A stretch of DNA of 64,000 bases from Verrucomicrobium sp. GAS474 (GTDB taxonomy: Bacteria; Verrucomicrobiota; Verrucomicrobiia; Methylacidiphilales; GAS474): the NCBI RefSeq assembly GCF_900105685.1, contig NZ_LT629781.1, positions 682,001 through 746,000 of the forward strand, given 5' to 3'. Under the pieces are notes generated by a model, which was given only the letters and a program-made list of their open reading frames with translations, did not search any database and was not told the DNA's origin. How positions within the stretch are numbered: the stretch's first letter is position 1; each line of letters opens with the position of its first letter. The position numbers and the translations under genes are program-made. Shown here piece by piece: positions 31,098 through 55,759 of the stretch.

Positions 31098-31567
31098 GGG
31101 ATGAGTAGGGCCCCGCTGGCGAGGCCCGAGAGGAAGGCCGCTGCGAACCGCTCCCGATGGAGGCGGCGGAACGAACCTTCGGTTTTCTGAAAAAGAGAGG
31201 AGAGGACGCCTGCGATGCCTTGTGTGGCCGAGAGAGCGCTCCCGATATGCCGGGTCAACTCAGCCTCGATCTGTTTGCCGAGGACTGAGGGCTTTTCGGA
31301 CAAAAGGCCGTTCATCACGTCCAGGTGACGAGCCACCTCCTCCAACGCTTTGACAGAACCGGCGATTACCTTGATTCGCTCGTCCAAGGCGACTTTCAGC
31401 ACCATGCCGGTTTCCTGGAGGGCATCGTTGCTCTGGTTGATTCGTCCCCAATGCCACGCCAGAACGGCGAGGAGAGGGTCGTCGGACGGCACCTTCTGCG
31501 CCGCCAGGATGACCTTGAGGTCGTCCGGCAGCGTGTCGGGGTAGGCCAACTCACCGGGAGCCTTCAT
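31067..31567 (-). CDS. Small conjugation-operon protein with C-terminal membrane helix
   Basis: A protein of 166 residues beginning MKAPGELAYPDTLPDDLKVI. The body is helical, and a single membrane segment lies near the C-terminus (FLSGLASGALLIPWTY). The ATG at 31567 overlaps the upstream ParA-like stop as ATGA, so this start is preferred over the longer frame. Its stop overlaps the coupling-ATPase start. I do not recognise the family. By position and topology it may act between the ParA-like ATPase and the coupling ATPase at the membrane. Confidence 0.7.
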   Translation of the reverse strand: MKAPGELAYPDTLPDDLKVILAAQKVPSDDPLLAVLAWHWGRINQSNDALQETGMVLKVALDERIKVIAGSVKALEEVARHLDVMNGLLSEKPSVLGKQIEAELTRHIGSALSATQGIAGVLSSLFQKTEGSFRRLHRERFAAAFLSGLASGALLIPWTYSHFFSH

Positions 31568-32289
31568 GCGAGGAGGTGGGATGCCGCCTGGGTGAACTGT
31601 TCCTCCATGAAGGTGTGGAACCGGACGCACCTGGAGCGGTCGAGAAGATGAAGTTTCGTGGCGGTTCTCCCTCGGCCCACGGTGAGATTGAGCATCTGGA
31701 GCCGGTTCTTCGTCATTTCGGCGAGGCACGGCACGTCAATCTCGACCGCTCCCGCCGCCTTCAGCTTCTTCCGGGTCTGCGCCCCGTCCCACATCGTCAG
31801 CTCGACCGAATCGCGGAAGTTCCGGGCGATGAGCCATTTCACCCGCTCCCCGTACGCCTCCAGCACGTCGGCGGCCTGAGAGATGGCGTCCTTGTCGTCG
31901 ATGGCGACGACCACGAAGACCAGCTCGAACGCCAGTTCCTTCTGAAGCTCGGTCAGGCGACTGTCTTCGATGTAGCGGAGTACCTTCGTGCCGCCCGCCG
32001 CCCGGTTATCGACCAGGACAGTATCGACCGTCTCCAAGGCGCTCACCAACCGGTCGAGGACGGCCAGTTTGTCGGCGTCGACGTCGGTGTCGATGAACTC
32101 GGCCTCGGGAACATACCGCTGGAAGGTGCTGTTGGCGTGGTCGAGGTCGAAGGTCTTCACTTTGACGCCGCGCTCGACGAGGAAGTCGTAGAGGAGGGTG
32201 GCGATGAAGCTCTTTCCGATCCCGCCTTTGTCCTGCGGGCAAAGGATCAGGCGTTTGGTGGGCATGAGTGTATCAGGGTGGGTCGTCAT
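31564..32289 (-). CDS. ParA/MinD-like ATPase of the transfer operon
   Basis: A 241-residue P-loop ATPase with a deviant Walker A motif (CPQDKGGIGKSFIATLLYDF), switch region FDLDHANSTFQRY and Walker B-like DTVLVDNRAAGG. ParA relatives in conjugation operons position the relaxosome or T4SS, and similar ATPases occur as TraL or VirC1. It lacks an N-terminal HTH. No ParB gene is adjacent. An internal ATG at 32265 is possible, but 32289 overlaps the upstream stop as ATGA and is preferred. Confidence 0.8.
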   Translation of the reverse strand: MTTHPDTLMPTKRLILCPQDKGGIGKSFIATLLYDFLVERGVKVKTFDLDHANSTFQRYVPEAEFIDTDVDADKLAVLDRLVSALETVDTVLVDNRAAGGTKVLRYIEDSRLTELQKELAFELVFVVVAIDDKDAISQAADVLEAYGERVKWLIARNFRDSVELTMWDGAQTRKKLKAAGAVEIDVPCLAEMTKNRLQMLNLTVGRGRTATKLHLLDRSRCVRFHTFMEEQFTQAASHLLA

Positions 32290-37222: not shown

Positions 37223-38122
37223 CTATTCAAATTGCAGTCGTCCCCGAGCCCGGTCGGCGACGATGCGCCTGGCGGTATTGCACTCGGCCAATAGAGTCTC
37301 CGTGAGGGCGTCCTGCAAATGGCGTTCCACAGCATTCCGCATCGGTCTCGCCCCCAGCGTCCGGTGATAGCCCTCGCGGACCAGGAACTCCAAGGCCGAC
37401 TCCTCGATGGTGAAATGGAATCCCATCTTCGCCAATCGCTCCACCTCCCGACTCACCATCAATTCGCAGATCTCCCGCTGCACCTGAAACGTCAGTCGCG
37501 TAAAGACCACCTTCTCACTGATGCGAGCCACCAGTTCGGGCCGCAGCGTTTGATCGACGCGGCGCAATACCGTTCGCTCGATAGTCGCCAGTGCCGAATG
37601 CTCCATCCGCATCGCCTCGGCGGCCCCGATGTTCGACGTGAAAACGATGTAGTAGCCGTTGAGGCTCCTCGTCTCGCCTGTTGCCAAGGTGATACGCCCC
37701 GCATCGAGGATTTGCAGGAAGAGATCCAGCACCAAGGGATGTGCCTTTTCCATTTCATCGAAAAGAAGCGTCCCCCGGTCGGCCTTGGCCAACGCCCGCC
37801 CCAGCATCCCGATTTCCGTCTCGCTCTGCCCCAATAAGAGCCCCACGGAGGATTGGTTCTGAAACTCCGACATATCGAAGCGATGGCAATGGCCCGGCCC
37901 AAAGAGGAAATCGGAAAAGCACACGGTAATTTCCGTCTTCCCTACGCCCGTCGGCCCAACGAAGAGGAACGATCCCTTGGGCCGATTCGGATGGGCCAGC
38001 CCCAGTTCCCCTCGTTTGAGAACGGACTGCACGCGGGGAAGAACATGAGCCTGTCCCCGGATGTTGTTCCGCAGGTAAGCGTCGAGATTCCGTAGCTTGT
38101 CGATGTTTGAAGTGGTTTTCAT
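37223..38122 (-). CDS. Single-domain ClpB/ClpA-like AAA+ ATPase
   Basis: A protein of 299 residues from the ATG at 38122. It corresponds to only the second AAA+ module of Clp/Hsp100 proteins: Walker A FVGPTGVGKTEITV, Walker B GTLLFDEMEKAHPLVLDLFL, sensor-1 YIVFTSNIGAAEAM, and the C-terminal small domain with YHRTLGARPMRNAVERHLQD. There is no N-domain, first AAA+ ring or ClpP-binding loop visible. It is divergent from the virB2-like operon. Its role in an element with no VirB11 is open, for instance in pilus or T4SS assembly. Confidence 0.85.
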   Translation of the reverse strand: MKTTSNIDKLRNLDAYLRNNIRGQAHVLPRVQSVLKRGELGLAHPNRPKGSFLFVGPTGVGKTEITVCFSDFLFGPGHCHRFDMSEFQNQSSVGLLLGQSETEIGMLGRALAKADRGTLLFDEMEKAHPLVLDLFLQILDAGRITLATGETRSLNGYYIVFTSNIGAAEAMRMEHSALATIERTVLRRVDQTLRPELVARISEKVVFTRLTFQVQREICELMVSREVERLAKMGFHFTIEESALEFLVREGYHRTLGARPMRNAVERHLQDALTETLLAECNTARRIVADRARGRLQFE

Positions 38123-38177
38123 GGGCCGAAAATAAGGCCGCTTTTCGCGGTTTTTCGGCTCATCGACAGGCATCTCT

Positions 38178-38246
38178 CACTGCTCGTTTCAACCCGCTTC
38201 TATCCGCCCGCTGCTCGCTGAGGGGGAAGCTGCTTTTCGTGATGAA
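38178..38246 (+). promoter_or_regulatory. Conserved leader upstream of the virB2-like operon
   Basis: CACTGCTCG, then 18 bp, then a block containing CGCTGAGGG and CGTGATG directly before the GTG start. The same arrangement occurs before the virB10-like gene at 46811-46886. This indicates a shared promoter or regulator site for the two secretion operons. Confidence 0.6.
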
Positions 38247-38540
38247 GTGGAAAGCGTGACGATCAACCTTCTCACCACTTCGGTTTTCCTGGCCCAGTCG
38301 ACCGGCAGCACCAGCCAGCTCCGCCAGGGCTTCAACATGGCCCTCGGGATCATGTTCATGTTCGGGTTCATCTGGGGCGTCGTGAAGATCTGGGGCGGGG
38401 CCAACGCCATCGGCAAGGGCGATCCCGACGGCAAGGCCGGGATCATCGCCGGAATCATCATCGCCGCCGCCGCCTCCATCATGGGCGCCCTCTTCGCCAT
38501 CTTCGGCCTGAGCGGCGGTGCCCTCACCCCCACGTTCTGA
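38247..38540 (+). CDS. VirB2/TrbC-like pilin subunit
   Basis: A protein of 97 residues with two strongly hydrophobic segments (FNMALGIMFMFGFIWGVVKI and IIAGIIIAAAASIMGALFAI) joined by a short polar loop with Gly/Asp/Lys, the layout of VirB2/TrbC pilins. The GTG start at 38247 is assumed. It is the first gene of the T4SS operon and overlaps the VirB3-like gene as TGATG. Unlike typical VirB2 there is no long cleavable signal peptide. Confidence 0.65.
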   Translation: MESVTINLLTTSVFLAQSTGSTSQLRQGFNMALGIMFMFGFIWGVVKIWGGANAIGKGDPDGKAGIIAGIIIAAAASIMGALFAIFGLSGGALTPTF

Positions 38541-38884
38541 TGAGTGGCACCCATCCCCACCTCCGGCTGACCGATACCAATGCCGCCGACGATTCGGGCG
38601 GCTCGGTCTGGGGCCTCGACGGAAACCTGTTCCTTCCGGTCGTGGCCTCGGCAACGCTCTCGATTGGCGTCCTCCTCGTCCTCTTCGCAGCGTTCCATGT
38701 GAACTGGCTTGCCAGCGCCCTGATCGCCGCCGTTCCGTTTTCGGGAACGCTCGCCTACGTCCTCCTCCTCAAGCAGAGTAAGCCCCCCGGTTACGACCTC
38801 GACTTGTTCGATCTCTGGATCAACGGGCGGGGCTTCTCGCTCGTCCAACGCGGCCAAACCCTCCACCGGAGACCCCTCTCGTGA
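38540..38884 (+). CDS. VirB3/TrbD-like membrane protein
   Basis: A protein of 114 residues with two membrane segments (LFLPVVASATLSIGVLLVLF and LASALIAAVPFSGTLAYVLL) and a polar C-terminal tail. VirB3 proteins are small, sit next to VirB4 and stabilise the inner-membrane complex. The gene overlaps the VirB2-like stop (TGATG) and the VirB4-like start by 4 bp. The assignment comes from size, topology and position. Confidence 0.65.
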   Translation: MSGTHPHLRLTDTNAADDSGGSVWGLDGNLFLPVVASATLSIGVLLVLFAAFHVNWLASALIAAVPFSGTLAYVLLLKQSKPPGYDLDLFDLWINGRGFSLVQRGQTLHRRPLS

Positions 38885-41502
38885 AAGGCCACGACAAAGC
38901 GCCCAATGGGCATTTCGCGGAAGACCTGATCCTTTACGGGAATTTGGAAACCGGCTCGACCGCCAGCAAGGGGTTCGTGCTGGAACCGCCCGACCTCCAC
39001 AACGCCTCGATCTCCCTCCTGAACGAGTTTCAGGATAAGATCCGCATCTTCCTCGCCACGCTTGGGCCGCGCCAGCGGGCGCAGATCCAATGGACGTGTA
39101 ATTCCGACTACCGGGCCGAGTTGACCCGGTATTACGAGGAGACGGCGAAGACCGCCGATCCCTACGTGCGCCGCGTCCGCAACGAGCGGTTCACCCGCTA
39201 CTGGCAGCGGATGCTGAACCGCACCCTGCGTCGGGAACAGTTGGTTCTCTTCATTTCTCAGGACATCGACAGCTATTCCGGCGCGTTGAAGAACCGGGCG
39301 GCCCTGTCCGATTACTACGCCAGCACGCTGAAGCAGCTCCGTAACGATTTCGGAGAACTGGGCTCCACCTTGGGAACAGTCTTCGGGAACGGGACGACGC
39401 TGCGGCCCATGTCCGACCTCGACCATTTCTCCTACACCCTTCGTTTTCTCAACCCGACCTTGGCCGACAGTCTCGATCTCCGTCCCGAGGAATTGTACCA
39501 CCCCGATCTCTCGATTCAGGAACTCTGCTGGAACGGGGATGGCGTCGGCATCAGCGAGAAGACCGGGTTCTATCTCGACGGCCACTACCACAATATCTTC
39601 TCCCTCAAGCGGTGGCCTCAGAAAACCTATCCGGGAATCATTCACCGTCTCACCGGCCTCCCCTTCCTCGATTACCAACTCACGATCAACATCGAACCGA
39701 TCCCTGTCCGGCAGGAAATCGGCAAGGAGGAAAAGGCGATGGATCGCCTCCGGGGCGATTTCGAGTCGGAGCGAAAGCAGTCCATCGCCGTCGCCCTGAA
39801 GAAGAAGGAGCGGAAGATCGACTCCCTGGCGCAGGGGTTCGCGTTCCCGTTCGACGTTCAATACTTGATCCGGGTCTGGGATCGCACGGAGACCGACCTC
39901 CATGCGAAGTGCGCTGCGGTGAGGAACGCCGTTCAGAATATGAATGGGGCCCAGCTTTATGAAACGGCCCTTTCCTCGACCGCGAAACGCCTCTTCTTTG
40001 CCACTTGGCCCGGCTGGACGGGAAGCAGCTATCGGCATCGGAATCTCTACGCCGAGGACCGCTATCTGGCCGATATGTTGCCGCTCTCATCGACCTTCAC
40101 GGCCCATCTGAAGGAAGCCGAGGCACTCTACGACGGCACAAACGGAAATCTCGTCGGTGTCCGCACCTTCCTGGGCGGGACGCCCCAGCACGCCGTCCTC
40201 CTCGGCATGACCGGCGCGGGGAAATCCTACTTCATGGACGACCTTCTGGCGCAGACCCAGCTCTACTTCGATTACAACGTCATCGTCGAAGAAGGGCTTT
40301 CCTACAAGCGATTTACCGAAAGCCTCGACCAGTCGCCGATCATCGTCCACCCGGACGGGGAACTCACTCTCAACTACCTCGACACCCAGGCCCTCCCACT
40401 CACCCAGCTCCATCTGGCAACGGCAGTGGCGCTCGTTTCCCGGATGATCGGAGAATCTTCCGATTCCGAAAAGCAACAGCTTCGGCAGGCCCAGATCGGT
40501 CAATACATCAACCAACTTTACATCGACACCTTTGCGGAATGGACGGGGAAGCATTCCGATCTCTTGCCCCAGATCCAGCGTCAGGCGTGCGCCGTCCACC
40601 GTTGGCGGCGGGAAAAGATGGAGACGGGAAGCACCTTCCTCGAAGCCTTCGCGGAACTCCGCGATCGGACGGCAACCAATGACGACGAAGCGCAGTCTTT
40701 CGTTGCCGGGGTCTCCGAATCGGAGATCACCCGTTTCATCAAGGAGCCCGATACGGAACGCCTCGTCATGGCGGCGGGATACAGCGCGTTCCGTCCCGAG
40801 GACTATCCCACCCATTCGGCGCTGATCGACCTGATGTACTTCTCCCGGTTCCCCGAACACCGGAAGGAGGATATCGACCATCTCGCCACGCTCCTGACCG
40901 CGTGGACCGCCAGCGGCCAATACGGAAAGCTCTTCGACGGGAAGACGAATACCTCCCTCACGGGCAAGGTTGCCCACTTCGAGTTGGGATACATTCCCGA
41001 ACAAGCCGTCGAACTGAAGACAGCGGCGGGACTCCTCATCTCCGGTTTCACCCGCCAGCACATCATCACCCTGCCCCGACATCTCTGGAAGCGGATCATC
41101 TTCGAGGAAGTGGCCCGGTTCCTCGACGTGCCGGGGGGCGAGAAAATCGTCGCCGAAAGCTATGCCCAACTTCGGAAGTTCAACTGCTGGACTATTTCGA
41201 TCGTTCAACAGTACAGCAAGTTCAAGGGAACGCGCATTCGGCCCGTGGTGATGGGAAACAGCAAGCAGTTCTTCCTCATGCGCCAATTTGACCGCTCCGA
41301 CCTGGAGGACATTTCCCAGGACATCCATCTTCCCGAGGTGACGGTCGAATCGATTCAGAACTACCCCCTGCCGGAACAGCAGGCCCCCGGTCAGAAGTTC
41401 TCCTCTGTCTGCTACTACTCCCCGACGACGCAACCCGCGACGTGCGGGACGATCCGGAATATTTCCGCTCCCGAACCTGAACCCCACCTCCTCGCCGTAT
41501 GA
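38881..41502 (+). CDS. VirB4/TraC-type conjugation ATPase
   Basis: An 873-residue ATPase of the T4SS inner-membrane complex. Walker A is LLGMTGAGKSYFMDDLLAQT (about residue 442). A VirB4-type downstream segment is ILPRHLW-like TLPRHLWKRIIFEEVARFLD, followed by CWTISIVQQYSKF. The N-terminal half (about 1-420) is the usual divergent membrane-associated region. It energises pilus biogenesis and substrate transfer. It ends with a 4-bp overlap with the next gene. Confidence 0.88.
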   Translation: MKGHDKAPNGHFAEDLILYGNLETGSTASKGFVLEPPDLHNASISLLNEFQDKIRIFLATLGPRQRAQIQWTCNSDYRAELTRYYEETAKTADPYVRRVRNERFTRYWQRMLNRTLRREQLVLFISQDIDSYSGALKNRAALSDYYASTLKQLRNDFGELGSTLGTVFGNGTTLRPMSDLDHFSYTLRFLNPTLADSLDLRPEELYHPDLSIQELCWNGDGVGISEKTGFYLDGHYHNIFSLKRWPQKTYPGIIHRLTGLPFLDYQLTINIEPIPVRQEIGKEEKAMDRLRGDFESERKQSIAVALKKKERKIDSLAQGFAFPFDVQYLIRVWDRTETDLHAKCAAVRNAVQNMNGAQLYETALSSTAKRLFFATWPGWTGSSYRHRNLYAEDRYLADMLPLSSTFTAHLKEAEALYDGTNGNLVGVRTFLGGTPQHAVLLGMTGAGKSYFMDDLLAQTQLYFDYNVIVEEGLSYKRFTESLDQSPIIVHPDGELTLNYLDTQALPLTQLHLATAVALVSRMIGESSDSEKQQLRQAQIGQYINQLYIDTFAEWTGKHSDLLPQIQRQACAVHRWRREKMETGSTFLEAFAELRDRTATNDDEAQSFVAGVSESEITRFIKEPDTERLVMAAGYSAFRPEDYPTHSALIDLMYFSRFPEHRKEDIDHLATLLTAWTASGQYGKLFDGKTNTSLTGKVAHFELGYIPEQAVELKTAAGLLISGFTRQHIITLPRHLWKRIIFEEVARFLDVPGGEKIVAESYAQLRKFNCWTISIVQQYSKFKGTRIRPVVMGNSKQFFLMRQFDRSDLEDISQDIHLPEVTVESIQNYPLPEQQAPGQKFSSVCYYSPTTQPATCGTIRNISAPEPEPHLLAV

Positions 41503-42320
41503 AATACCTTCTCCGCCTACTCGTCCTTTTGGTTTTGCCCGTCCTCGCCCATGCCGATTCGATGATCACGTTTGCCGGGGGCGACGGGGTGAGCTTCACG
41601 ACGACGGTACCGGGGCTTGCCATCGTTTATGGCATCAAGAACGACGACTCCTCTTCCTGGGGCTTTCAGGTGATCAATGCAGCGAACGGGGCAGGGATGG
41701 GGGGAGCCCAATTTGACATCGGGTCAAACATCACCTCGGGCCGCCCCATCACTGCCGTCGTCTATCTTTCCCAAGCCGGAACTTATTACATCCAAGGGCA
41801 CAGCAGCCAAGGAGGGGACAGCTACAACGGCGTTTTCATTCCCGACGATGCAACGGCCTCCCAGGCGGCGCTCGATCAAATCAACGCCGCCATTTCGAGC
41901 CTTCAGGATCAGACCGCCCAGAACACCTCCGCCATCGCCTCTCTGTCGACCCTCAACACCACGCTTCAGGATCGAATCGCCACGTTGGAGACGAATTTGA
42001 ACGCACTTCAGAACACCGTGCAAACGGGCAGTTCCGATCTCCAGAGCCAGATCGACGCACTGACCTCCCAGCTCACGGTATTGAAGCAGGTTTCCGCGAC
42101 GACGACTCAGACCCTTCAATCGCAGATCAATTCCCTTTCCGATCGGGTGACGACGGTCAGCTCGACGTCGGTCAAGAAATCGACCCTTAACACCTATCTC
42201 CTTTATGGCGCGACGGGGCTCGGAGCGGGAGCCCTTGGCGTCGGCCTCTACACGCTCTTTGACAGTCCCTCCTCGCCCACGACTTCCACCCCGAAACCCT
42301 CTTACACCCATGCGAAATAA
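41499..42320 (+). CDS. Secreted coiled-coil protein of the T4SS operon
   Basis: A protein of 273 residues with a signal peptide (YLLRLLVLLVLPVLAHAD), a beta-rich N-terminal domain (about 25-120), a long coiled coil (about 125-225, with repeated Q-S-Q-I-N-x-L and S-L-x-D patterns) and a C-terminal hydrophobic segment (LLYGATGLGAGALGVGLYTL). It lies between the VirB4-like and lipoprotein genes and has no counterpart in the standard VirB set that I know. It could span the periplasm or decorate the pilus base. Confidence 0.6.
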   Translation: MKYLLRLLVLLVLPVLAHADSMITFAGGDGVSFTTTVPGLAIVYGIKNDDSSSWGFQVINAANGAGMGGAQFDIGSNITSGRPITAVVYLSQAGTYYIQGHSSQGGDSYNGVFIPDDATASQAALDQINAAISSLQDQTAQNTSAIASLSTLNTTLQDRIATLETNLNALQNTVQTGSSDLQSQIDALTSQLTVLKQVSATTTQTLQSQINSLSDRVTTVSSTSVKKSTLNTYLLYGATGLGAGALGVGLYTLFDSPSSPTTSTPKPSYTHAK

Positions 42321-42588
42321 GCTCCTTCTCTTACTCGTCGCCGCCTGCGGCTTGGGCGGTTGCGCCTCCCAACCGACCTATGGTCCCTCCAAGGACGGCG
42401 CAGCCGATTACAACCTGGGCCGTTCCGATGCCGTGAAGCAGCAATATTGGATCATCCAGAATCAGCAGAAGGCCCTCCAGACGAAACCCCAGCCAAGAGT
42501 GTCGTACTACACCTTCACGACCGGGGGAACGACGACCAACGGTGTCACCACCGTTCCGACCACCGAATACCTCCGTATCGAAAACTAA
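42310..42588 (+). CDS. VirB7-like small lipoprotein
   Basis: A protein of 92 residues from the ATG at 42310, which lies 11 bp inside the end of the previous gene. It has a lipoprotein signal (LLLLLVAACGLGGC) and a short soluble part rich in Gln, Tyr and Thr. Small lipoproteins of this kind stabilise the VirB9/VirB10 outer-membrane core complex. The name is by position and type only. Confidence 0.6.
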   Translation: MRNKLLLLLVAACGLGGCASQPTYGPSKDGAADYNLGRSDAVKQQYWIIQNQQKALQTKPQPRVSYYTFTTGGTTTNGVTTVPTTEYLRIEN

Positions 42589-42591
42589 CCC

Positions 42592-43392
42592 ATGAAGTTA
42601 TTCACAATTTTGGCTGTGGGTGCCGTCCTCGCTTTGGAAGGTGTTTCTTCGGCCCGTGCCCAATATTCCGTCTCCATCGTTTCCGATCCTATCGCCCAGC
42701 TCGCCCACTCGGATGACATGGCCCAATGGGCGAAGTCGATCCAGGCCCTCAACACCCAGATCGATCAGTTCAATCAGCAGATCCAACAGATTCAGACGAT
42801 GAAGAACTTCATCGGTGATCCGTTGGCGGCGGCGGGGAGCATGAACCTCAATCTCCTCGGGGACAGCAATCTGACCTCCTCGGTGGGCCAGCTTTCCTCG
42901 ACTCTCAATCAGACGGCCAGTGGCGTCCAGGCGTTGACGAATACCTCGGGTGGCCTCTTCACCAGCACCAGCCTTCAGACCCCCAGCGGGTTCGACTTCC
43001 AGGCCAACGGTGATCTTTTCAAGCCGTTCGCAGCTATCCAGCAGCAGACGCAAAATGTCACGAGCGTCATCGGCGACACCCAGGCCCGAATCACCCAGCT
43101 TCAGCGGGATAAGGCGGCGACCCTCGCCCAGATCCAGTCCTCTACCAACCAGTCCGAAGTCCAGAAATTGCAGGCAAAGGTCGCTGCCATCGACGGGCAG
43201 ATCGCCGATCTCAACAACCAGCAAGGGACGGCCCAGGCCCAGCTCGTCACTCAGGACATTTCCAATCGGAACGACCGGCAGATGAAAGCCGACGCCGCGA
43301 ACCAGTCGGCCGATCAGGAAATGTCGGTGTCGCTCGACAACTATTCCAAATGGCAGGGGAACGTCCACGCCAGCCGGAAGGATTTCAAATAG
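42592..43392 (+). CDS. VirB5/TrbJ-like periplasmic protein
   Basis: A protein of 266 residues with a signal peptide (LFTILAVGAVLALEGVSSAR) followed by a long helical body rich in Gln and Asn (SIQALNTQIDQFNQQIQQIQ). This is the typical TrbJ/VirB5 opening, with coiled helices about 140-240. VirB5 proteins sit at the pilus tip and help recipient recognition. It lies 4 bp after the lipoprotein gene and 9 bp before the VirB6-like gene. Confidence 0.7.
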   Translation: MKLFTILAVGAVLALEGVSSARAQYSVSIVSDPIAQLAHSDDMAQWAKSIQALNTQIDQFNQQIQQIQTMKNFIGDPLAAAGSMNLNLLGDSNLTSSVGQLSSTLNQTASGVQALTNTSGGLFTSTSLQTPSGFDFQANGDLFKPFAAIQQQTQNVTSVIGDTQARITQLQRDKAATLAQIQSSTNQSEVQKLQAKVAAIDGQIADLNNQQGTAQAQLVTQDISNRNDRQMKADAANQSADQEMSVSLDNYSKWQGNVHASRKDFK

Positions 43393-43401
43393 GAGCTTCC
43401 C

Positions 43402-44514
43402 GTGGAAATCAGCGACTTCGTCCCGACGCTCCAGCCGATGGCGGAGCAGATCAGCACCGATCTCCGGTTCGTCTGCTTTTTCGTCCTGACCGCCTCGATC
43501 ATCGTCCGGGCCTCCCGCACCAGCCACGGCAACGTCGTCGGGCTGATGAAGCCGATCATCACGGCGGCGGTCCTCTGCGGTCTTATTGCTACCCTGCCGG
43601 TCTGGTTCAACGCGGCTCGGGACGAGTTTTGGAATATCGCCGTCCTCATCCGCTCGCAGTTTGCCGACGACCCTACTTCGACCAGTTCGGCCCTGATGAA
43701 GCTCATCAAACCGCCCGACAACGGTTTCAACTGGCTCGATATTGGGAATTCGTTGATGAAGGCGGTCCAATTCGCCCTTGGTTGGCTCGTCGTCTGCATC
43801 GGGGGAATGGTGCAGCTCCCCATGATGATCGGGCAGTTCGTCATGGAATGTCTTTGCTATATGTTCCTCCCCATCGCCCTTTCGCTCTTCTCGATGGAAA
43901 GCACGAAGGGGCTGGGGATGCGGTACGTCCAACAGACGCTGGCGATCCTGGCCTGGCCCATCGGGTTCGCCGTGGTCGATCTGGTGGGGTATTCGATTCT
44001 GACGGGCCCAATTTCGGCGGGAAGCGCCCTTGCCCTGGCCTACGGCGCGGCGACGAAGTTCACTCCGGCCACGCTTCTCCTCGGATGCATTACCGCCGTC
44101 TGGCTCATCCTGGGGAGTCTCGCCGTGCCGATTGTGATGCAGTTGCTCTTTTGTTCGGGAACGCCACTTTCGTCGTCGGTCGGAAAGTCGATTGAATTAG
44201 GCATGGCGGCGGGAGGCATCAGTAGACTGTTGTCCGGGAAGCTCGGTGCGGCTCCTTCCTCCTCCGGCCCGTCGTCGCCCGGAACCCCGGGATCGAGCAA
44301 CGGACCGTCCTCCTCGCCACCGACACCGCCTTCCCCAACACCGGCTGGATCTGGGATGCCCCCGCAACTCGGGACAACACAACAGGCGGCCCTCATGCCC
44401 TTATCCGCGCCGGTGAAACCGCAGAAGCCACCACCTTCCTCCGATCCTTCTCTCGACCGTTTCGCCCTCGCCGTCAAACAACTGAACCAGATCCCGCTTG
44501 CGATCTCCTACTGA
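43402..44514 (+). CDS. VirB6/TrbL-like polytopic membrane protein
   Basis: A protein of 370 residues beginning with GTG. Several membrane segments are seen (FVCFFVLTASIIVR, IITAAVLCGLIATLPVW, AVQFALGWLVVCIGGMV, LLLGCITAVWLILGSLAVPI). A Pro/Ser/Gly-rich C-terminal tail of about 90 residues follows. VirB6/TrbL proteins form part of the inner-membrane channel and guide DNA. Position between VirB5-like and VirB8-like genes supports the call. Confidence 0.72.
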   Translation: MEISDFVPTLQPMAEQISTDLRFVCFFVLTASIIVRASRTSHGNVVGLMKPIITAAVLCGLIATLPVWFNAARDEFWNIAVLIRSQFADDPTSTSSALMKLIKPPDNGFNWLDIGNSLMKAVQFALGWLVVCIGGMVQLPMMIGQFVMECLCYMFLPIALSLFSMESTKGLGMRYVQQTLAILAWPIGFAVVDLVGYSILTGPISAGSALALAYGAATKFTPATLLLGCITAVWLILGSLAVPIVMQLLFCSGTPLSSSVGKSIELGMAAGGISRLLSGKLGAAPSSSGPSSPGTPGSSNGPSSSPPTPPSPTPAGSGMPPQLGTTQQAALMPLSAPVKPQKPPPSSDPSLDRFALAVKQLNQIPLAISY

Positions 44515-44515
44515 G

Positions 44516-45169
44516 ATGAATGCCGATACCCTCCGCACCACCCACGTCCCCGCCGGGCTTCCCCCTCGGCAATCTCGTCCCGCTCCTACGGTCGTCCGTC
44601 TCTTTTCCGATCACGGCTGGGCCGCCCGGATGTGGTTCGCCGTGGCCGTCTGCGCTCTTTTTGCCGCATTGGTGGAACCTTATCTAGTGATTGCCGCCTA
44701 CCGGACACGGGAGCGGGTCGTGATCCTCGACGAGGCAGGGACGTTTCACGTCTCGCCGCTCCTCAATTTCGAGGATGCCACCCAGCTTCATACCTCCCAA
44801 GCGATTCTCGCCTGCCTCGCCCTCTTTCAGAAGAACCCGACCGGATACGATTATCCCGACCTGTTGGAGAAGATGTACCTGCCCGATGCCTTGGAAAAAG
44901 CGAAGGCATTACGAAGCGCCCAAGCCGCCGAGTTTTCAGCGAAACAGATCCATCAGAAAGTCGAAATTCAGAAAATCGACATTCTCCAAACACGGAACGA
45001 TCTCGTCCTGGTCGAAGTGACAGGGCAGCTCCCTCGCGTCGGTGTCTTCAACGGCCAGCCGTTTCCCGAGGCCCCGGCATTCAAAGTCCGCTTCACCCTC
45101 GTCCGTAACCCCAACCTGACCGCCAACGGTCGCTTCCCCCTCGCTGTATGGAAATTCGATCTGCTTTGA
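44516..45169 (+). CDS. VirB8/TrbF-like inner-membrane protein
   Basis: A protein of 217 residues from the ATG at 44516. The N-terminal cytoplasmic part is followed by a membrane helix (MWFAVAVCALFAALVEPYLV) and a periplasmic domain of about 150 residues with helix-then-strands order (SQAILACLALFQKNPTGYDY, IDILQTRNDLVLVEVTGQL). This matches VirB8/TrbF architecture. Its end overlaps the following VirB9-like gene by 22 bp. Confidence 0.68.
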   Translation: MNADTLRTTHVPAGLPPRQSRPAPTVVRLFSDHGWAARMWFAVAVCALFAALVEPYLVIAAYRTRERVVILDEAGTFHVSPLLNFEDATQLHTSQAILACLALFQKNPTGYDYPDLLEKMYLPDALEKAKALRSAQAAEFSAKQIHQKVEIQKIDILQTRNDLVLVEVTGQLPRVGVFNGQPFPEAPAFKVRFTLVRNPNLTANGRFPLAVWKFDLL

Positions 45170-46044
45170 TTCTGCTGTGTGTCTTCGTCACCTCAGTCTG
45201 GGCCGATACCCGGCCCGACTTCCGGGCGATCAAGCAATTCCCGCTCGATGACCGGACGGTGTACACCATCCTCATTTCGAGGGACGAGCCGACCACGATC
45301 ATGTTTCCTAGTGCCCTGACGGCATTGGAAGGGGCCGGGATCACGACCGACCCGGAAGCCTCAGCACCGGTCTTCCTCAATTACACGAAGGGACGGTATT
45401 ACTTTTCGGTTCGGGCGTTGCAGGAGGCGGCGACGGGACACCTCAACGTCATCTGGAACAAACACACCTATGTCCTGACGTTCCAGACCGATCCCCATCC
45501 GTTCAATGCAGTGACGTTCTATCAGCTGACCGATCCCCGCCCGGAGTTGGGACAGCGGGAGGGAGTCGGCCCGACGAAGCTGCTGGGACTACTCGACCGA
45601 GCGAAGGCGTATCATCTCATTCAGGGCCAATATCCCGAGGCGTTGCCTCAGATCGACACGGCACAGCCCCATCGCCGGATGTTGTACAAGGATTTCGAGG
45701 TCGAGATCGCGGAGGTGTTCCGGTTTGACCCGGAGGACACACTGATTTTCAAGCTCCTGCTCTACAACACTAGCGATAAGGAAATCTGCTACCTGCCTCA
45801 GACGTTGGCGGTACGGGTGGGAACGAATGTCTATTACACTTCGCTCCCCGACGCTTCAGGCGTGTTGCCTCCGGGGCGGATCGATCCGAAAACGCAGAAG
45901 ATCGAGCCCAGCGTCTCGCTGGCTTATTTTGCGGTGACGGGCTCGCCGGACGGAGGAAGGAACAACCTCGCAGTCGATAATCCGTTCAATGTCATCGTGA
46001 CCCGCGCTCCCTCACCCGTCACGTTGGACGCGGCGACAAAGTAG
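45148..46044 (+). CDS. VirB9/TrbG-like periplasmic protein
   Basis: A protein of 298 residues with a signal peptide (SALILLCVFVTSVWAD). The N-terminal strand-rich domain starts with FRAIKQFPLDDRTVYTILIS, close to the VirB9 opening that binds VirB10. The C-terminal part is also beta-rich (TLIFKLLLYNTSDKEICYLP). VirB9/TrbG helps form the outer-membrane ring. The ATG at 45148 lies within the previous gene, which suggests coupling. Confidence 0.65.
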   Translation: MEIRSALILLCVFVTSVWADTRPDFRAIKQFPLDDRTVYTILISRDEPTTIMFPSALTALEGAGITTDPEASAPVFLNYTKGRYYFSVRALQEAATGHLNVIWNKHTYVLTFQTDPHPFNAVTFYQLTDPRPELGQREGVGPTKLLGLLDRAKAYHLIQGQYPEALPQIDTAQPHRRMLYKDFEVEIAEVFRFDPEDTLIFKLLLYNTSDKEICYLPQTLAVRVGTNVYYTSLPDASGVLPPGRIDPKTQKIEPSVSLAYFAVTGSPDGGRNNLAVDNPFNVIVTRAPSPVTLDAATK

Positions 46045-46048
46045 GCCC

Positions 46049-46336
46049 CTACTCGAATAACTCGGCCACCTTGACCCGCAAGGCGCGGGCCAGGGCAATG
46101 ATTTCGACGTCGTTGACCGTCCGCTGACGCAATTCGATCTTGTTGATCGAGCTGCGGCTGAGAAGGACGCCCTGCGATGCCAGCCGCCCTGCGATGTCTT
46201 CCAGGGACGCCTTGGGAGTCAATTTGAGGCGGATCGCCCGGACTTTCGCCCCGATCACGTTCTGTTTTCCGTCCCGAGCGCGGGTCCGTTCCCGTTTCGG
46301 GCTCTTCCTTGAAATGGATTTGCTCTTCTGAAGCAC
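46049..46336 (-). CDS. Xre-family helix-turn-helix regulator
   Basis: A protein of 95 residues. A basic N-terminal tail precedes a Xre/Cro-type HTH (IGAKVRAIRLKL, SLEDIAGRLASQGVLLSRSS, INKIELRQRTVNDVEIIALA, RALRVKVAELFE). It is convergent with the VirB9-like gene and divergent from the small gene at 46410, across a 19-bp dyad. It probably regulates itself and the second T4SS operon. Confidence 0.8.
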   Translation of the reverse strand: MLQKSKSISRKSPKRERTRARDGKQNVIGAKVRAIRLKLTPKASLEDIAGRLASQGVLLSRSSINKIELRQRTVNDVEIIALARALRVKVAELFE

Positions 46337-46366
46337 ATCTTGACTTAGCCGACTTGACGTCCAAAT

Positions 46367-46385
46367 ATGTTCCTCGGAAGAACAT
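46367..46385. promoter_or_regulatory. 8-3-8 dyad between the Xre gene and its divergent neighbour
   Basis: ATGTTCCTCGGAAGAACAT has arms ATGTTCCT and AAGAACAT (7 of 8 paired) around CGG. It lies between the starts of two divergent genes, the expected place for a Xre operator. The half-site sequence differs from the GGTATTAC dyads, so a different regulator is implied. Confidence 0.55.
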
Positions 46386-46409
46386 CAAAGACCATTTCCC
46401 CTGGACGCC

Positions 46410-46796
46410 ATGAAAACGAGCATCGGTACTGAGTCCTTACCAATCGGAGATCCCTCTACCCGAAAAAAGCCCTTCGTTAAGGCCAAGGCAGGTTTCTGGG
46501 CTCCGGCGGACGTTCAGGAAAGTATCCTGGCCCTCGTAGAAAACGGCACCTACGCCGATCAATCCAAGGCCATCGTCGGTCTGCTGCGGAAGGCGCTCCG
46601 CGACGATACGCTTATACCGCCACCCCTCCGCAAACGTCTCGACCACCTATCCACCGATCTGGATCGGACGCCTGAAGCCATCGTGCGCCTCTGCGTCGAG
46701 GGCATCCTCGAAATGCTCGACGGCCCCGAGGCGACGATTCCCCTGCTGATCGAGGAAGTCCGCTTGCGCCAGCGACGAGGGCAAAACGGCACCTAG
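46410..46796 (+). CDS. Small unknown protein, possibly DNA-binding
   Basis: A protein of 128 residues, highly charged. WAPADVQESILALVENGTYA followed by DQSKAIVGLLRKAL has the spacing of a ribbon-helix-helix-like region. I do not recognise it. It follows the Xre-site dyad and precedes the virB10-like leader. It may act in regulation of the second T4SS operon. Confidence 0.5.
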   Translation: MKTSIGTESLPIGDPSTRKKPFVKAKAGFWAPADVQESILALVENGTYADQSKAIVGLLRKALRDDTLIPPPLRKRLDHLSTDLDRTPEAIVRLCVEGILEMLDGPEATIPLLIEEVRLRQRRGQNGT

Positions 46797-46810
46797 ATTC
46801 CGCGCAAGCC

Positions 46811-46886
46811 CACTGCTCGCCTGAATCCTCTTTTACTCGCCTGCCGCACGCTGAGGGAAAAGTTCGTTCCGTGATGGAATGGAGGC
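46811..46886 (+). promoter_or_regulatory. Conserved leader upstream of the virB10-like operon
   Basis: CACTGCTCG, then 18 bp, then CGCC-type block with CGCTGAGGG and CGTGATGG, ending at the GTG start. It matches the leader at 38178-38246. GGAGG lies only one base before the GTG, an unusually close ribosome-binding site. Confidence 0.6.
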
Positions 46887-47888
46887 GTGATCAGCGCCCG
46901 CCAATTTCTCGACTTCTTCCAGACGAAGACCGGTCAGTTTGTCGCTTTCGCCGCCGTGGTGACGGTGGCCGGGGGACTCTATTACGGGTTGCGAACCTCC
47001 GCGGCTACCTCCGCATCGACTCCGACACTCCCAGCGAAGGAAGCAGCGGCACAGGATCATCCCATCACGGTGAACCGAGAAGGAACGCCCCTGAAGCTTC
47101 CCGACATACTGAGCCTTCCCGGAGTCTCCAAAGCCGCTCCTAAGCCACCTGCCCGCCTCCCGATCACCCTTTACGATGGCGGCCCAGACGGGGCGGAGGT
47201 CTCGGACACCTATGCCCCCTACGGGCGACTCATTCCCTGCGAGACGGTCATTACGATCGACTCGGCCAAGATTGAGACGCCGATCATCGGTTTTGTCACC
47301 GAGGACGTCTATCACAACGGGCGGCTCGTCATCCCGGCAGGGGCCGAAGTCCACGGCAAAGCCCGCACCGATCGTTCCCGCGAGCGGATCGCCAGCGACA
47401 ACCAGTGGTACATCGTCTGGCGGACGACCGATCAGCTCAACGGGGCCGAACTGGTCGTCAGCGGACTCGCTCTCGATATGGAACGGGACTACGCCAACGG
47501 ACGCTGGGCCATCACCGACGGCTCCGCCGGCCTTCGGGGCGATCTCATCAAGAGCGACAACTGGGCGGAGATCAAATTGTTCGCAGCCACCTTCCTGAGT
47601 GCAGCGGCGGGCGGGCTTCAGGACAACCAGAACATCTTCAATCCGATGACGGGCGGATACCAACAAAGCCCTCTCGATTCTCCGAAGAACGCAGCCCTCC
47701 AGGGCACCAGTGCCGTCCTGAACCAATACGCCCAGCAAATCGCCGATTCGATCAAGCAGAACGGCTTTTACGTCCGGGTGCCTGCCGGGAAGCAATTCTA
47801 TCTCTACGTCATGCAGACCCTCGATCAGGAGAAGGCTCACAAGGCCGAGTCCTTGACCCATTCACCCACGAAATCCCCCACCCCATGA
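46887..47888 (+). CDS. VirB10/TrbI-like protein
   Basis: A protein of 333 residues. A short cytoplasmic N-terminus leads to one membrane helix (FVAFAAVVTVAGGLYYGL), then a Pro-rich linker, then the VirB10/TrbI beta-barrel domain (LIPCETVITIDSAKIETPII, HNGRLVIPAGAEVHGKAR, and the late NGFYVRVPAGKQFYLYVMQT). VirB10 bridges the inner and outer membrane core complexes. The GTG start follows a shared leader. It is translationally coupled (ATGA) to the next lipoprotein gene. Confidence 0.8.
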   Translation: MISARQFLDFFQTKTGQFVAFAAVVTVAGGLYYGLRTSAATSASTPTLPAKEAAAQDHPITVNREGTPLKLPDILSLPGVSKAAPKPPARLPITLYDGGPDGAEVSDTYAPYGRLIPCETVITIDSAKIETPIIGFVTEDVYHNGRLVIPAGAEVHGKARTDRSRERIASDNQWYIVWRTTDQLNGAELVVSGLALDMERDYANGRWAITDGSAGLRGDLIKSDNWAEIKLFAATFLSAAAGGLQDNQNIFNPMTGGYQQSPLDSPKNAALQGTSAVLNQYAQQIADSIKQNGFYVRVPAGKQFYLYVMQTLDQEKAHKAESLTHSPTKSPTP

Positions 47889-48463
47889 AATGGCTCTATT
47901 CCCTCCCCCTGGTCGCGCTGGCCGGGTGCAGCACCACCCCCACCGAAACAACGGTCCCCATTCGGGAGAATCAGGTCGCAGGAACCGCGCTCGACCTTCA
48001 GGACACGGAGAATGTCCGGTATAGCGAAGCCCTGAAGGCCTACCCCGTGGGCCGTTATGAAGACCCGAACAATCCCTACGTCCTTCACGAGGCCCACACG
48101 ATCTACCGAGCCGAGCAGCCTCCTCGCTGGAATCTCAATCCCAACGCCCCGACCGCCGTCCCCCTCGGGCCGACCGTAGCGGTCGCCGATCCGGCGAAGC
48201 AGACAGCAGCCCTGAGCGGGGAACTGGAACAGAAGATCCAGCAACAGAACCAGCTTCTTCAGGCAACGGCGGAACAGAACGACCGGCTTTCGCAGGAAAT
48301 CGATCGGATGAAGACCGAGGCCGACAAGGCTCAGGCCGCTGCCGCCGCGAACGAGGCGTTGCGGCGTCAGGTGGCCGACCAGCAAGCCCAGCTCGATGTC
48401 CTGAAAACCCAAGCCGACAAGACTCCGCCCCCCCGGAAGGCGTGGTGGGAGCTGTGGCATTAA
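47885..48463 (+). CDS. Lipoprotein with coiled-coil C-terminus
   Basis: A protein of 192 residues beginning MKWLYSLPLVALAGC, a clear lipobox (LAGC). The C-terminal half is a coiled coil rich in Gln, Ala and Glu (QNQLLQATAEQNDRLSQEID). It overlaps the VirB10-like stop as ATGA. It may be an outer-membrane part of the T4SS, possibly contacting VirB10. Confidence 0.6.
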   Translation: MKWLYSLPLVALAGCSTTPTETTVPIRENQVAGTALDLQDTENVRYSEALKAYPVGRYEDPNNPYVLHEAHTIYRAEQPPRWNLNPNAPTAVPLGPTVAVADPAKQTAALSGELEQKIQQQNQLLQATAEQNDRLSQEIDRMKTEADKAQAAAAANEALRRQVADQQAQLDVLKTQADKTPPPRKAWWELWH

Positions 48464-48483: not shown

Positions 48484-48717
48484 ATGATCATCACCCTGCC
48501 CATACCGGACGACGTGGCCCGCGAATACTTTGTGGCCGCCGAAAAACTGACCACGCATCTCGCCCCGCTGGGGCGCTCCCCGGACGCCCGCACCCTCATG
48601 GTAATGGCGCTTTCCTCGATGACGGCCGAGGAGATGGTCGGCCACTTCGACCTGGCCCTCCGCAGCATCGTGGGAGTTCCGATCCCCAGCGAAGTATCAC
48701 CCGATTTTCAGAACTGA
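48484..48717 (+). CDS. Small unknown protein
   Basis: A 77-residue protein from the ATG at 48484. It reads as a small helical domain (PIPDDVAREYFVAAEKLTTH, then MALSSMTAEEMVGHFDLALR). I do not recognise it. It lies between the coiled-coil lipoprotein and the gene at 48793 and is likely part of the same transcript. Confidence 0.5.
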   Translation: MIITLPIPDDVAREYFVAAEKLTTHLAPLGRSPDARTLMVMALSSMTAEEMVGHFDLALRSIVGVPIPSEVSPDFQN

Positions 48718-48792: not shown

Positions 48793-49218
48793 ATGGCATT
48801 GAAGTTGAAGAATCAGCCCTCTTCCCCGGCGGGAGAGGCTCCCGAGGAGGCGGAAGGCCGCGCTCCCCGGATTAATGAGAAGGTCGATCAGAAGCTGACC
48901 TCGTTCATGGAGGAGAACCAGAAGGCGACGGAATACTATCGCAAACTGGTTCGGGAAGATCCGGAACGGGCCGTGCGGACGATCATGCTCGCCAAGCTGA
49001 ACAAGTACGAGGATCAGATGCGTCTCGTCGAGAAGCAGATGCCCCAGGTGAAGCAGTGGATCGATCAGAACCCCGGTATGCGGGAGAAGATCGAGGCCCG
49101 GATCAAGGACGTGAATCCGATCTACAAGGAGATCGCGTTCGTGAACGAGGCCGTGAAGATGCGCGGTCGCCTCGACTTTTCCCCGTCACAGGGAGTCCAG
49201 GCGAGTCTCGCGGCCTGA
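48793..49218 (+). CDS. Small helical unknown protein at the end of the T4SS operon
   Basis: A 141-residue protein with a good GGAGG ribosome-binding site 7 bp upstream. It is highly charged and helical, with coiled-coil pattern (FMEENQKATEYYRKLVREDP, EDQMRLVEKQMPQVKQWIDQ). I do not recognise it. It is the last gene before a strong terminator, so it closes the second T4SS transcript. Confidence 0.6.
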   Translation: MALKLKNQPSSPAGEAPEEAEGRAPRINEKVDQKLTSFMEENQKATEYYRKLVREDPERAVRTIMLAKLNKYEDQMRLVEKQMPQVKQWIDQNPGMREKIEARIKDVNPIYKEIAFVNEAVKMRGRLDFSPSQGVQASLAA

Positions 49219-49711: not shown

Positions 49712-49999
49712 ATGCACCCCGAAAGGCAGCAGTTTTTGAACTTGAGACGGTCCCCTGCCCGTCTGAATGCGGAAGAAACCGCTTGGTTTCTTGGATTTCT
49801 TCCCCATGAGATACCGGTGTTGATGGCGGCCAAGTTACTTAAACCATTGGGTACTCCTGCGGCGAATGGTTGTAAATATTTCTCAGTCTCTGAAATAGAC
49901 GTTCTTCGAGAAAATCCCATTTGGCTTGCAAAGGCTTCCAATGCGATCGTCACTCATTGGAAAACCAAAAATCGCCGAAGAATTCATAAGAACCATTGA
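49712..49999 (+). CDS. Small helix-turn-helix protein, excisionase-like
   Basis: A protein of 95 residues, AT-rich. RRSPARLNAEETAWFLGFLP followed by IPVLMAAKLLKPLGTPAANG and KYFSVSEIDVLRENP is the pattern of MerR/excisionase-like HTH proteins. It lies at the right end of the element, divergent from the RHH-like gene, with the dyad between them. Excisionase-type proteins control integration and excision, but no integrase gene is adjacent in the window. Confidence 0.55.
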   Translation: MHPERQQFLNLRRSPARLNAEETAWFLGFLPHEIPVLMAAKLLKPLGTPAANGCKYFSVSEIDVLRENPIWLAKASNAIVTHWKTKNRRRIHKNH

Positions 50000-50022: not shown

Positions 50023-53000
50023 TTAGGCATGCGGATTTTTTGGTGTGATTTCTCTGCCTTTCCAAAGCACATAAATCACCGGATAAAGCAGCAAATTCAA
50101 AACCGCCGAGGTGATGACGCCGCCAACCATCGGCACAGCGATGCGCTTCATCACGTCGGCTCCGGTCCCGACGCTCCAGAGGATCGGCAACAGGCCGAAG
50201 AGAATCGCGCAGACCGTCATCATCTTCGGGCGGATGCGTTGCACGGCTCCTTCCTTTACGGCGGCAAAGAGATCGGCCATCGAATTCATCTGCCCTCGCG
50301 CCTTCCGCTCGTCATAGGCTTGATCGAGATAGAGGAGCATCACCACACCGGTCTCGGCGTCGATCCCGGCCAGGGCAATGAGGCCGACCCAGACCGCGAC
50401 GCTTAGGTTGTAATCCAGCAGGTAGATCAGCCAGAAGGCCCCAATCAATGAAAAGGGGACCGACAGCAGGACGATGCAGGTCTGCGCTGCCGAACGTGTG
50501 TTCAGATAGATCAGGACGAAGATGATGAGCAGGGTCATCGGGACAACGAAGAGCAGCGTCTGCTTCGCCTGCTGGAGGGACTGGAACGATCCGGCCCATT
50601 CAATGTAATAGCCGGGCGAGAACGACACCCTTTCGCCGATGCGATGCACGGCGGCTTTGACATAGCCGTCGATGTCGGTGGCCGTCGTATCGACAAAGAC
50701 AAAGCCGACAAGCTGGCCGTTTTCACTTCTCACCTCTGGAGGGCCGCTCTCGAAGGTGATCTGCGCCAGCGTCGACAAGGGGACTTGAGCGCCGGAGGGG
50801 GTCGCTACGGGAATCTGCTTGATAGCCTCCACGTTGTCGCGGAAGTCCCGGGCGAACCGGACGCTGATCGGGTATCGTTCCCGTCCCTCGACGGTTTGGG
50901 AAACCGTATTGCCGCCGATGGCCGACTCGACCACGGTGTTCACGTCCTCGATTTTCAAGCCGTAACGGGCGATGGCGTCCCGGTCGGTCGTGATGTCGAG
51001 ATAGCGCCCTCCCGTCGTTCTTTCGGCAAAGACGCTTCTCGTATCGGGAAGATCGCTGAGAGCCTTCTCGATGTCGGTGCTGACGCGGTTGATCCCGTCG
51101 AGATCCTTTCCAAATACCTTGATGCCGAGGTTGGAGCGGAACCCGGTCGTCAGCATCTGGGTCCGGGTCTGGATCGGCATCCAGAAGACGTTCGCCATGC
51201 CGGGGGTCTTGGTCTTCTGGTTGATTTCCTCGACGAGCTTGTCCCAGGTCATTCCCTTGCGCCATTCCTCCTTGGGCTTGAGCTGCACCGTTGTCTCGAA
51301 CATCGAGAGGGGGGCGGGATCGGTCGAGGTTTCGGCCTGCCCCGCCTTCCCGAAGACGGTCTCGACCTCGGGGAAGCTTTTCAGGATGCGGTCCTGCCCC
51401 TGCAACACCTTGATGGCCTCGTCGATAGCGATGCCGGGAATAGCGGTCGGCATGTAAAGAAGATCTCCTTCGTTGAGAGGAGGCATGAACTCGGAACCGA
51501 GCTTCATCACCGGAATGATCGTCAAAGCCAGGGCGATCACCGACAGGAGAATGGTCGTCTTGCGGAAACGGAGAACCCAATCGACCAAAGGCCGGTAGAT
51601 CCAGATCAGGAAGCGGTTCACCGGATTCTCCGCCTCGGGGGTGATCTTGCCACGAATGAACCAGACCATCAGGACCGGCACGAGGGTGATGGAGAGGAGC
51701 GCGGCGAAGAACATGGCGAAGGTCTTCGTATAGGCCAAGGGCTTGAAGAGACGTCCTGCCTGCTCTTCCAACGAAAAGACGGGGACAAACGAGACGGTAA
51801 TCACCAAGAGCGAAAAGAAGAGCGGGCGGCCCACCAATCGGGCAGCCGCCAGAATAGCTTCGACCCGCTGGCTGTTGGTCAGTTCTTTCCCGTGATTCTC
51901 CTCCCTGGCCCGCTCCAGGAACTTGTGGGCGTTCTCGATCATGATGATCGCCGCATCGACCATGGCGCCGATCGCGATGGCGATGCCGCCGAGCGACATG
52001 ATGTTCGCCGTAAGATGGAGATGCTGGAAGGGAACGAACGAAAGGAGGATCGCCAGCGGGAGCATGATGATCGCCACCAGGGCGCTGCGGAAGTGCCAAA
52101 GGAAGACAATGCAGACGAGGCTGACGATGATACTCTCCTCCAGCAGCTTCTCCCGCAGGGTATCGACCGAACGGTGAATGATCTTCGAGCGGTCGTAGAC
52201 CGGGACGATCTTGAGTCCCGGAGGGAAGGAGGGTTCCAGCTGCTTCAGCTTTTCCTTCACTCCGTCGATCACCCGGAGGGCATTTTCTCCGTAACGCATG
52301 ACGATGACGCCGCCGACGGTCTCGCCTTTCCCGTCTAGTTCAGCCGCACCATAACGAAGATCGGGGCCGAGAGTCACCGTACCGAGTTGGCTGACGAGAA
52401 TGGGCGTTCCTCCCGCATCGGTCTTCACCGCGATCTTCTCGATGTCCCGGGTCGATTTCAGGTAGCCCCGGCCTCGGACGTAATATTCGGTCGTCGAGAC
52501 TTCGAGGGTCTTGCCTCCCACGTCCTGGTTGCTCTTGCGGACGGCGTCCATGACGTCGTTGAGGGAGACGTGGTAGGAAAGGAGTTTGTTCGGATCGAGG
52601 TTGACCTGATATTCCTTCACGAAGCCGCCGACCGTGGCGACCTCGGAGACTCCCTTCACGCTCGCGAGCGCGTAACGGAGGGTCCAATCCTGGAAGCTGC
52701 GAAGTTGGGCGAGGTTACTGTGGCCGCTTTCGTCGACCAGGGCGTATTCGTAGACCCAGCCGACACCGGTGGCGTCGGGACCGATCGTCGGATTCACTCC
52801 CTCAGGAAGGGAGCCGCGCACCGAGTTGAGGTATTCGATGACCCGGGAACGGGCCCAGTAGATGTCGGTCCCGTCCTCGAAGATGACGTAGACGAACGAT
52901 TTGCCGAACATCGATTCGCCCCGGACGAACTTGACCTTCGGTGCCGAGATGAAACGGCTGGAGATCGGATAGGTGATCTGGTCCTCGACGAGCGAGGGGC

Positions 53001-53169: not shown

Positions 53170-53182
53170 AACGTTCTTTCCG

Positions 53183-54580: not shown

Positions 54581-54734
54581 AACGTGATCGACGGTTGAAG
54601 TGGAAGGGAGACCGAGTGGATCTCCTTGGAGAGGGAAGGCGCAGAACCGTTTTGACCCGCAGCGGACCCGCCACCATGACGGCGTCCTGCAAAGGAGATA
54701 AACGGAAGGCCTTCCTATCGGGAGGCGGGGGGAA

Positions 54735-55756: not shown

Positions 55757-55759
55757 GGC

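Follow-up and report, generated by a model that had tools for sequence, protein, structure and literature searches.

We report a pair of matching sites, A (38178-38255) and B (46811-46886), that probably act as promoters, one for each half of a divided type IV secretion system (T4SS) operon in an integrative and conjugative element (ICE) of Verrucomicrobium sp. GAS474. The window, by which we mean the whole stretch of 64,000 nucleotides analysed here, corresponds to positions 682,001 to 746,000 of contig NZ_LT629781.1, and coordinates refer to it unless marked as genome positions. Comparison with related elements suggests that A and B are duplicated, jointly activated, class II-like promoters and that each such pair co-evolves with an activator from the same element, a reading to which we assign a probability of roughly 0.62. 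A preliminary description of this DNA had treated the two sites as a shared leader that implied joint control or an ancestral duplication of the promoter. Joint control and promoter duplication are both supported by the finding that related promoters, an A site before the first operon and a B site before trbI, precede both halves in all four complete split elements. The label of leader is probably wrong, since the start codon lies 6-7 nt past the -10 and little or nothing would be transcribed ahead of the gene. The two sites consist of the following parts.

38178-38186, plus strand: first box of promoter A, CACTGCTCG, recognised in the sequence as a repeat
38211-38217, plus strand: second box of promoter A, CTGCTCG, which abuts the -35 and repeats the CTGCTCG of the first box at a distance of 31 nt
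38218-38223, plus strand: putative weak -35 of promoter A, CTGAGG, at a fixed position in 16 aligned promoters
38240-38248, plus strand: putative extended -10 of promoter A, TGA-TGAAGT, with the GTG start 7 nt on, at 38256
46811-46819, plus strand: first box of promoter B, CACTGCTCG, recognised in the sequence as a repeat
46844-46850, plus strand: second box of promoter B, CCGCACG, with two differences from that of A
46851-46856, plus strand: putative weak -35 of promoter B, CTGAGG, placed by the same 16-promoter alignment
46872-46880, plus strand: putative extended -10 of promoter B, TGA-TGGAAT, with the GTG start 6 nt on, at 46887

The words singled out in the preliminary description are all in place: besides CACTGCTCG at the head of each site, both copies contain CGCTGAGGG (38216-38224 and 46849-46857) and CGTGATG (38238-38244 and 46870-46876), with the GTG starts downstream. 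The similarity that it described over about 70 bp is confirmed, with one refinement. A repeat search recovers 52 nt without gaps at 75% identity, plus matching -10 regions, and the common block (38178-38258 and 46811-46889) reaches the GTG only if the spacer of the second copy is taken to be 1 nt shorter. Aligned in register, A and B are identical at 36 of the 47 positions that span the first box through the -35. A composite pattern allowing up to three mismatches has two matches in the window and none in 100 shuffles; in the genome of 3,763,444 bases it finds A and B only, and a reversed control pattern finds nothing. Because the pattern was derived from sites A and B themselves, these counts indicate uniqueness rather than independent discovery. 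No extra copies were found in the organism's own genome by pattern, and a DNA similarity search of it returned only A itself.

Related elements place the two sites in context. The close-element set comprises 11 elements, the window included, that have a full-length VirB4 at more than 70% identity. Seven are unsplit (L006, L007, L008, L009, L010, L011 and L015): an interval of 11-26 nt lies between the aligned VirB9-like gene and the aligned trbI, which leaves no room for a promoter ahead of trbI. Four are split at this junction, by 0.84 kb in the window, about 8.6 kb in G051:C20, about 5.0 kb in G010:C15 and about 1.4 kb in G010:C4b (G051, C15 and C4b below), and one short contig, G015:C45, carries trbI with no VirB9 gene upstream. 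More distant elements that have both genes are either unsplit or have a gap below about 0.1 kb (L014, L016, L018, L019, L098, L099 and L100), apart from L017, where VirB9 and trbI are about 1 kb apart. Given the unsplit gene order of most elements, the unsplit operon is probably the ancestral state. A single split event is weakly supported: it is compatible with the VirB4 tree (69/89 and 75% of 200 bootstrap trees) and with the VirB9-like tree (55/79 and 78% of 200 bootstrap trees), and the TrbI tree requires two changes. The 21 plasmid records with VirB4 relatives were not used for promoter comparison because all are too distant (less than 60% VirB4 identity), and no VirB4 relatives were found in viral contigs.

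The preliminary description had tied its proposal to conservation of the sites in related elements; what is kept is the architecture and the pairing; the actual sequence differs between elements. The window word CTGCTCGCTGAGGG is exact at A and has two mismatches at B, every other match having three. The G051 word ACTACTCAGTRAGG has two matches in 35.5 kb with up to two mismatches allowed, both exact; the C4b word CTGACTGCTCGCTA has two in 17 kb, both again exact; and the C15 word TACTACSGSGTAASGG is found at A with one mismatch and at B exactly, beside one unrelated match with three mismatches. In viral contigs the 14-mer CTGCTCGCTGAGGG matches at least 120 stretches, which we judged to be chance occurrences. 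Over 58 nt, A and B of the same element share 39 positions in the window, 41 in G051, 29 in C15 and 23 in C4b, and between elements the corresponding values are 20-32 for A with A, 21-26 for B with B and 14-29 for mismatched A and B. The true pairing totals 132 identities and stands at the top of the 24 possible pairings (the next reaches 123), which is the strongest outcome that four pairs can give. In three of the four split elements, A and B are more alike than either is to the counterpart promoters of other elements.

Likeness within elements and difference between orthologous promoters would also be expected from repeated copying, that is, if promoter B were a passive copy of A made in each lineage by recent duplication or gene conversion, reflecting ancestry only and no common regulator. 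The TrbI tree, which does not group the split elements, leaves room for several such separate events. We nevertheless consider passive copying unlikely, on account of where the likeness stops. Identity between A and B over the block is 36, 38, 23 and 22 of 47 positions (window, G051, C15 and C4b, respectively), whereas the near upstream flank (-120 to -81) gives 4, 12, 11 and 10 of 40 and the coding start 8, 11, 11 and 9 of 40, both of which are at chance level. In G051 the likeness ends at the -35, the spacer (6 of 15) and the -10 (4 of 9) having diverged beside a block that is kept at 38 of 47, and a copied tract is unlikely to end at such functional edges in all four pairs. Such sharp limits, which coincide with the edges of the promoter, are better explained by selection on a protein-binding site than by the copying of a tract.

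The anatomy of the sites was compared in 16 promoters (11 A and 5 B) aligned on the -10, with a spacer 1 nt shorter permitted in the B promoters of the window and C15. Because the -10 served as the anchor, independent evidence comes from the upstream columns alone, where A(-46) is kept in 15 of 16 promoters, C(-34) in 15 of 16 and T(-29) in all 16. T(-29) is followed mostly by A-A-S-G-G and then by TG-NNN-ANT, and a constant 17-18 nt of variable sequence separates the -35 block from the TGN-10. A core regular expression built from the sites and run over both strands of 417,873 bases (18 partly overlapping sequences) matched nine distinct places, all of them A or B sites, and missed seven of the 16 promoters. 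By eye, TTGACA together with a -10 and an ATG 6 nt on was seen among distant relatives in L225 and L227 only; these were not counted. The combination of a weak -35 and an extended -10 would be served by the housekeeping RNA polymerase.

Constant spacing around variable sequence is typical of promoters, and it argues against a leader of structured RNA, for example a riboswitch or an attenuator, common to both transcripts. That alternative is suggested by the word leader in the preliminary description and by short inverted repeats around the -10 in several elements, which were noted by eye only and whose sequence varies by element (for example, L008 9290-9320 and L067 13300-13330). The window has no Rfam match at the gathering threshold, and if the -10 is correctly placed no transcribed leader remains; we regard a common RNA leader as very improbable.

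In the available excerpt of PMC4344509, the SetCD-dependent transfer promoters of ICEs have an activator box that overlaps the -35 or lies just upstream of it, with no recognisable TTGACA. Here the second box at 38211-38217 adjoins CTGAGG at 38218 in a register that is constant in the 16 promoters, and a common box precedes more than one transfer operon, at both sites in the window and as pairs in all four split elements. Activator and repressor sites are indistinguishable from sequence alone, and the ICE encodes a ParA/MipZ-like protein (31564-32289), so the block might instead be the site of a repressor or of a partition or transfer accessory protein. Two observations make this quite improbable: the block lies immediately upstream of a weak -35, at a constant distance, which is where SetCD-type activators bind according to the same excerpt, and within the element DNA that was scanned the block words occur nowhere but ahead of operons A and B. 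Among the scanned open reading frames (ORFs), which are a part of those of the ICE, Pfam named no SetCD/AcaCD (FlhCD-like) activator.

The start codon lies 6-7 nt past the -10 in 11 of the 16 promoters and 6-10 nt past it in 14, a spacing from which leaderless mRNAs are predicted; we infer that transcription of operons A and B begins at the start codon or within a few nucleotides of it. Promoter B has no in-frame start farther upstream, and for promoter A there is an in-frame GTG at 38247, which shares bases with the -10. The host chromosome was surveyed in 400 kb (20 stretches, L076-L095), with expectations taken from distances 20-60. The pattern TANNNT occurs 6-12 nt ahead of the ATG of ORFs of at least 100 codons 94 times, compared with 37.9 expected, and its spacing peaks at 6 nt before the ATG (18 compared with 5.4). 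Three of four control patterns rise little or not at all, and AANNNT shows a smaller rise (124 compared with 92.5). In the same stretches Shine-Dalgarno words have no peak at the normal spacing and show codon periodicity only. These spacing profiles were used in place of a start-codon survey by longest ORFs, which gave no usable signal in the host. Leaderless mRNAs or very short leaders may thus be common in this Verrucomicrobia genome. The -10 hexamers of the window, TGAAGT in A and TGGAAT in B, depart from the TANNNT form in having no A at position 2 and carry the extended TG instead. Shine-Dalgarno sequences are scarce in some Verrucomicrobia according to the available part of PMC10783764, and the literature search, within the partial texts it covered, showed this scarcity and no description of a leaderless promoter in Verrucomicrobia.

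Under the reading of duplicated and jointly activated promoters, promoter A would drive the half of the T4SS operon that begins with the VirB2-like gene and ends with the VirB9-like gene, and promoter B the TrbI/VirB10 half that is cut off by cargo. An activator encoded by the ICE is proposed to bind the block just upstream of the weak -35 of both promoters, in a class II-like manner, and thereby to switch on the two halves of the secretion machine together as the ICE prepares for transfer, with the mRNAs of both halves starting at the start codon. Once cargo had entered the VirB9-VirB10 junction, promoter B would keep the VirB10 half subject to the control that governs the first half, and each promoter pair would co-evolve with the activator of its own element. 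The best candidate tested for this regulator was the small protein at 48484-48717, which is conserved in 12 of 12 aligned elements and ribbon-helix-helix-like by eye; its structure model (pLDDT 76.8) has three helices and no strand, and we do not claim it as the regulator. Another candidate is a 95-aa protein (49712-49999, plus strand) that is excisionase-like or winged-helix by eye, is conserved in G051, L067, L006 and L009 and has no Pfam match.

Several observations weigh against joint activation of promoters that co-evolve in pairs. C4b fails the pairing, its A promoter matching that of the window at 32 of 58 positions and its own B promoter at 23; the likeness of A and B in C15 is modest (29 of 58); and a single genome, G010, supplies two of the four split elements. 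The conservation of the -10 in the 16-promoter alignment is partly circular. L010 would require an ATT start (a codon at 6 nt), and in L009 the ATG is 14 nt past the -10. No fold match with E below 3 was obtained for the protein at 48484-48717. Finally, a strict sigma-70 scan of 45900-46950 yielded no promoter, which indicates that the -35 is weak, as in SetCD-dependent promoters.

The genes on either side of the two promoters are listed below.

37223-38122, minus strand: ClpB-D2-like AAA ATPase, divergent from promoter A (PF07724, 4.8e-28; longer frame 37223-38173)
38256-38540, plus strand: small membrane protein, first gene of operon A, conserved in relatives, no Pfam match; we take it to be VirB2-like from its position and make-up
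38540-38884, plus strand: small membrane protein, conserved in relatives, no Pfam match; presumably VirB3-like, from its position
38881-41502, plus strand: VirB4/TraC-like ATPase (NCBIfam VirB4_CagE 2.3e-21, TraC-F-type 3e-22, both under the curated cut-offs)
41499-42320, 42592-43392, 43402-44514 and 44498-45169, plus strand: four more genes of operon A, the last three conserved in relatives and the first weakly so
45148-46044, plus strand: VirB9/CagX-like, last gene of operon A (CagX match no better than E 0.093; immediately upstream of trbI in 7 of the 11 close elements)
46887-47888, plus strand: TrbI/VirB10-like, first gene of operon B (PF03743, 5.8e-21)
47885-48463, 48484-48717 and 48793-49218, plus strand: remainder of operon B, a lipoprotein-like protein, a conserved small protein and a helical protein, respectively, conserved in relatives

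Cargo of defence-like and toxin-antitoxin-like kinds, different in each split element, occupies the slot between the VirB9-like gene and trbI; the C4b slot contains an Xre/MbcA-type antitoxin and its neighbours.

46049-46336, minus strand: helix-turn-helix (Cro/C1-type) ORF in the window slot (HTH_3 1.8e-4, just under the curated cut-off)
46410-46796, plus strand: 128-aa protein in the window slot, no family above cut-off, ribbon-helix-helix-like by eye
L064 11942-20000: G051 slot with an AAA ATPase, a Dam-type methylase, an SNF2 helicase and a NOV_C-domain protein
L066 9979-14545: C15 slot with a CapH/CapP-like pair, an E2-E1 fusion and a JAB protease

The T4SS itself is carried by an ICE of about 62.6 kb inserted in tRNA-Asn, as concluded from a 25-nt repeat of this tRNA gene together with a tyrosine-integrase match at genome 763906-764373 (32 bits, with a cut-off of 27.1).

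20439-20463, no strand assigned: left attachment repeat, 25 nt identical to the tRNA-Asn 3' end at genome 765072-765096, beyond the window

Near 20.2 kb the G+C content drops from about 69% to about 55-60%. An integrase, a TrwC-type relaxase, a coupling protein, T4SS genes (VirB4-like and TrbI) and the attachment repeat, which together define an ICE, are all present, and transfer is predicted from the genes. Named relatives belong to Verrucomicrobia, Candidatus Methylacidiphilales and Lentisphaerae. Beside the coupling protein, 24466-29610 (minus strand) encodes a 1714-aa helicase/methylase-like protein that has 70-77% identity over the matched stretches in four related loci and may be a core component of these ICEs. 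Heavy-metal cargo occupies 50023-63975, with an RND efflux pump, a membrane-fusion protein, a P-type ATPase, a multicopper oxidase and an outer-membrane efflux protein, and also a metal-resistance protein with an ECF sigma factor (55145-55756).

Taken singly, the features seen here are already known: activator boxes that serve more than one transfer operon, genes without leaders, and ICE cargo slots. As outlined in the available excerpt of PMC4344509, the SetCD promoters of SXT/R391 ICEs, and the AcaCD promoters of IncA/C plasmids, likewise have one activator box by a motif-less -35 before several transfer operons; here, in contrast, the box is a different one and varies between related ICEs, and the transcripts are predicted to be leaderless. 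The accessible portions of PMC12340547 and PMC3160421 describe leaderless genes of Deinococcus-Thermus and Actinobacteria with the -10 placed a few bp ahead of the start codon and no ribosome-binding site, and the -10 is found likewise a few nucleotides before the start codon here. The present case differs from these in belonging to Verrucomicrobia, in its extended -10 TGN-NNNANT, which often lacks the A of TANNNT, and in its upstream box. With other tRNA-integrated T4SS ICEs the element shares its TrwC-type relaxase, coupling protein, VirB4, TrbI, tyrosine integrase and 25-nt tRNA-Asn repeat, but here cargo opens the virB9-virB10 junction and a promoter precedes virB10. A matching promoter pair of element-specific sequence was not encountered in the partial texts of the open-licence literature search.

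Related ICEs do share cells, with four in genome G010 and three in G042. A possible, if doubtful, extension of our reading is that the paired promoters form private switches, each ICE having its own activator and box, so that related ICEs in one cell would not cross-activate; the half cut off by cargo would then carry a promoter with the box of its own element, the paired boxes acting as a matching key. At the level of sequence, the two promoters would explain how a conjugation operon survives being split by cargo, in that the severed half bears a promoter that matches that of the first half. The fast-diverging promoter pairs constitute a natural set for testing regulatory specificity between co-resident elements, and the position of their start codons points to leaderless expression in Verrucomicrobia.

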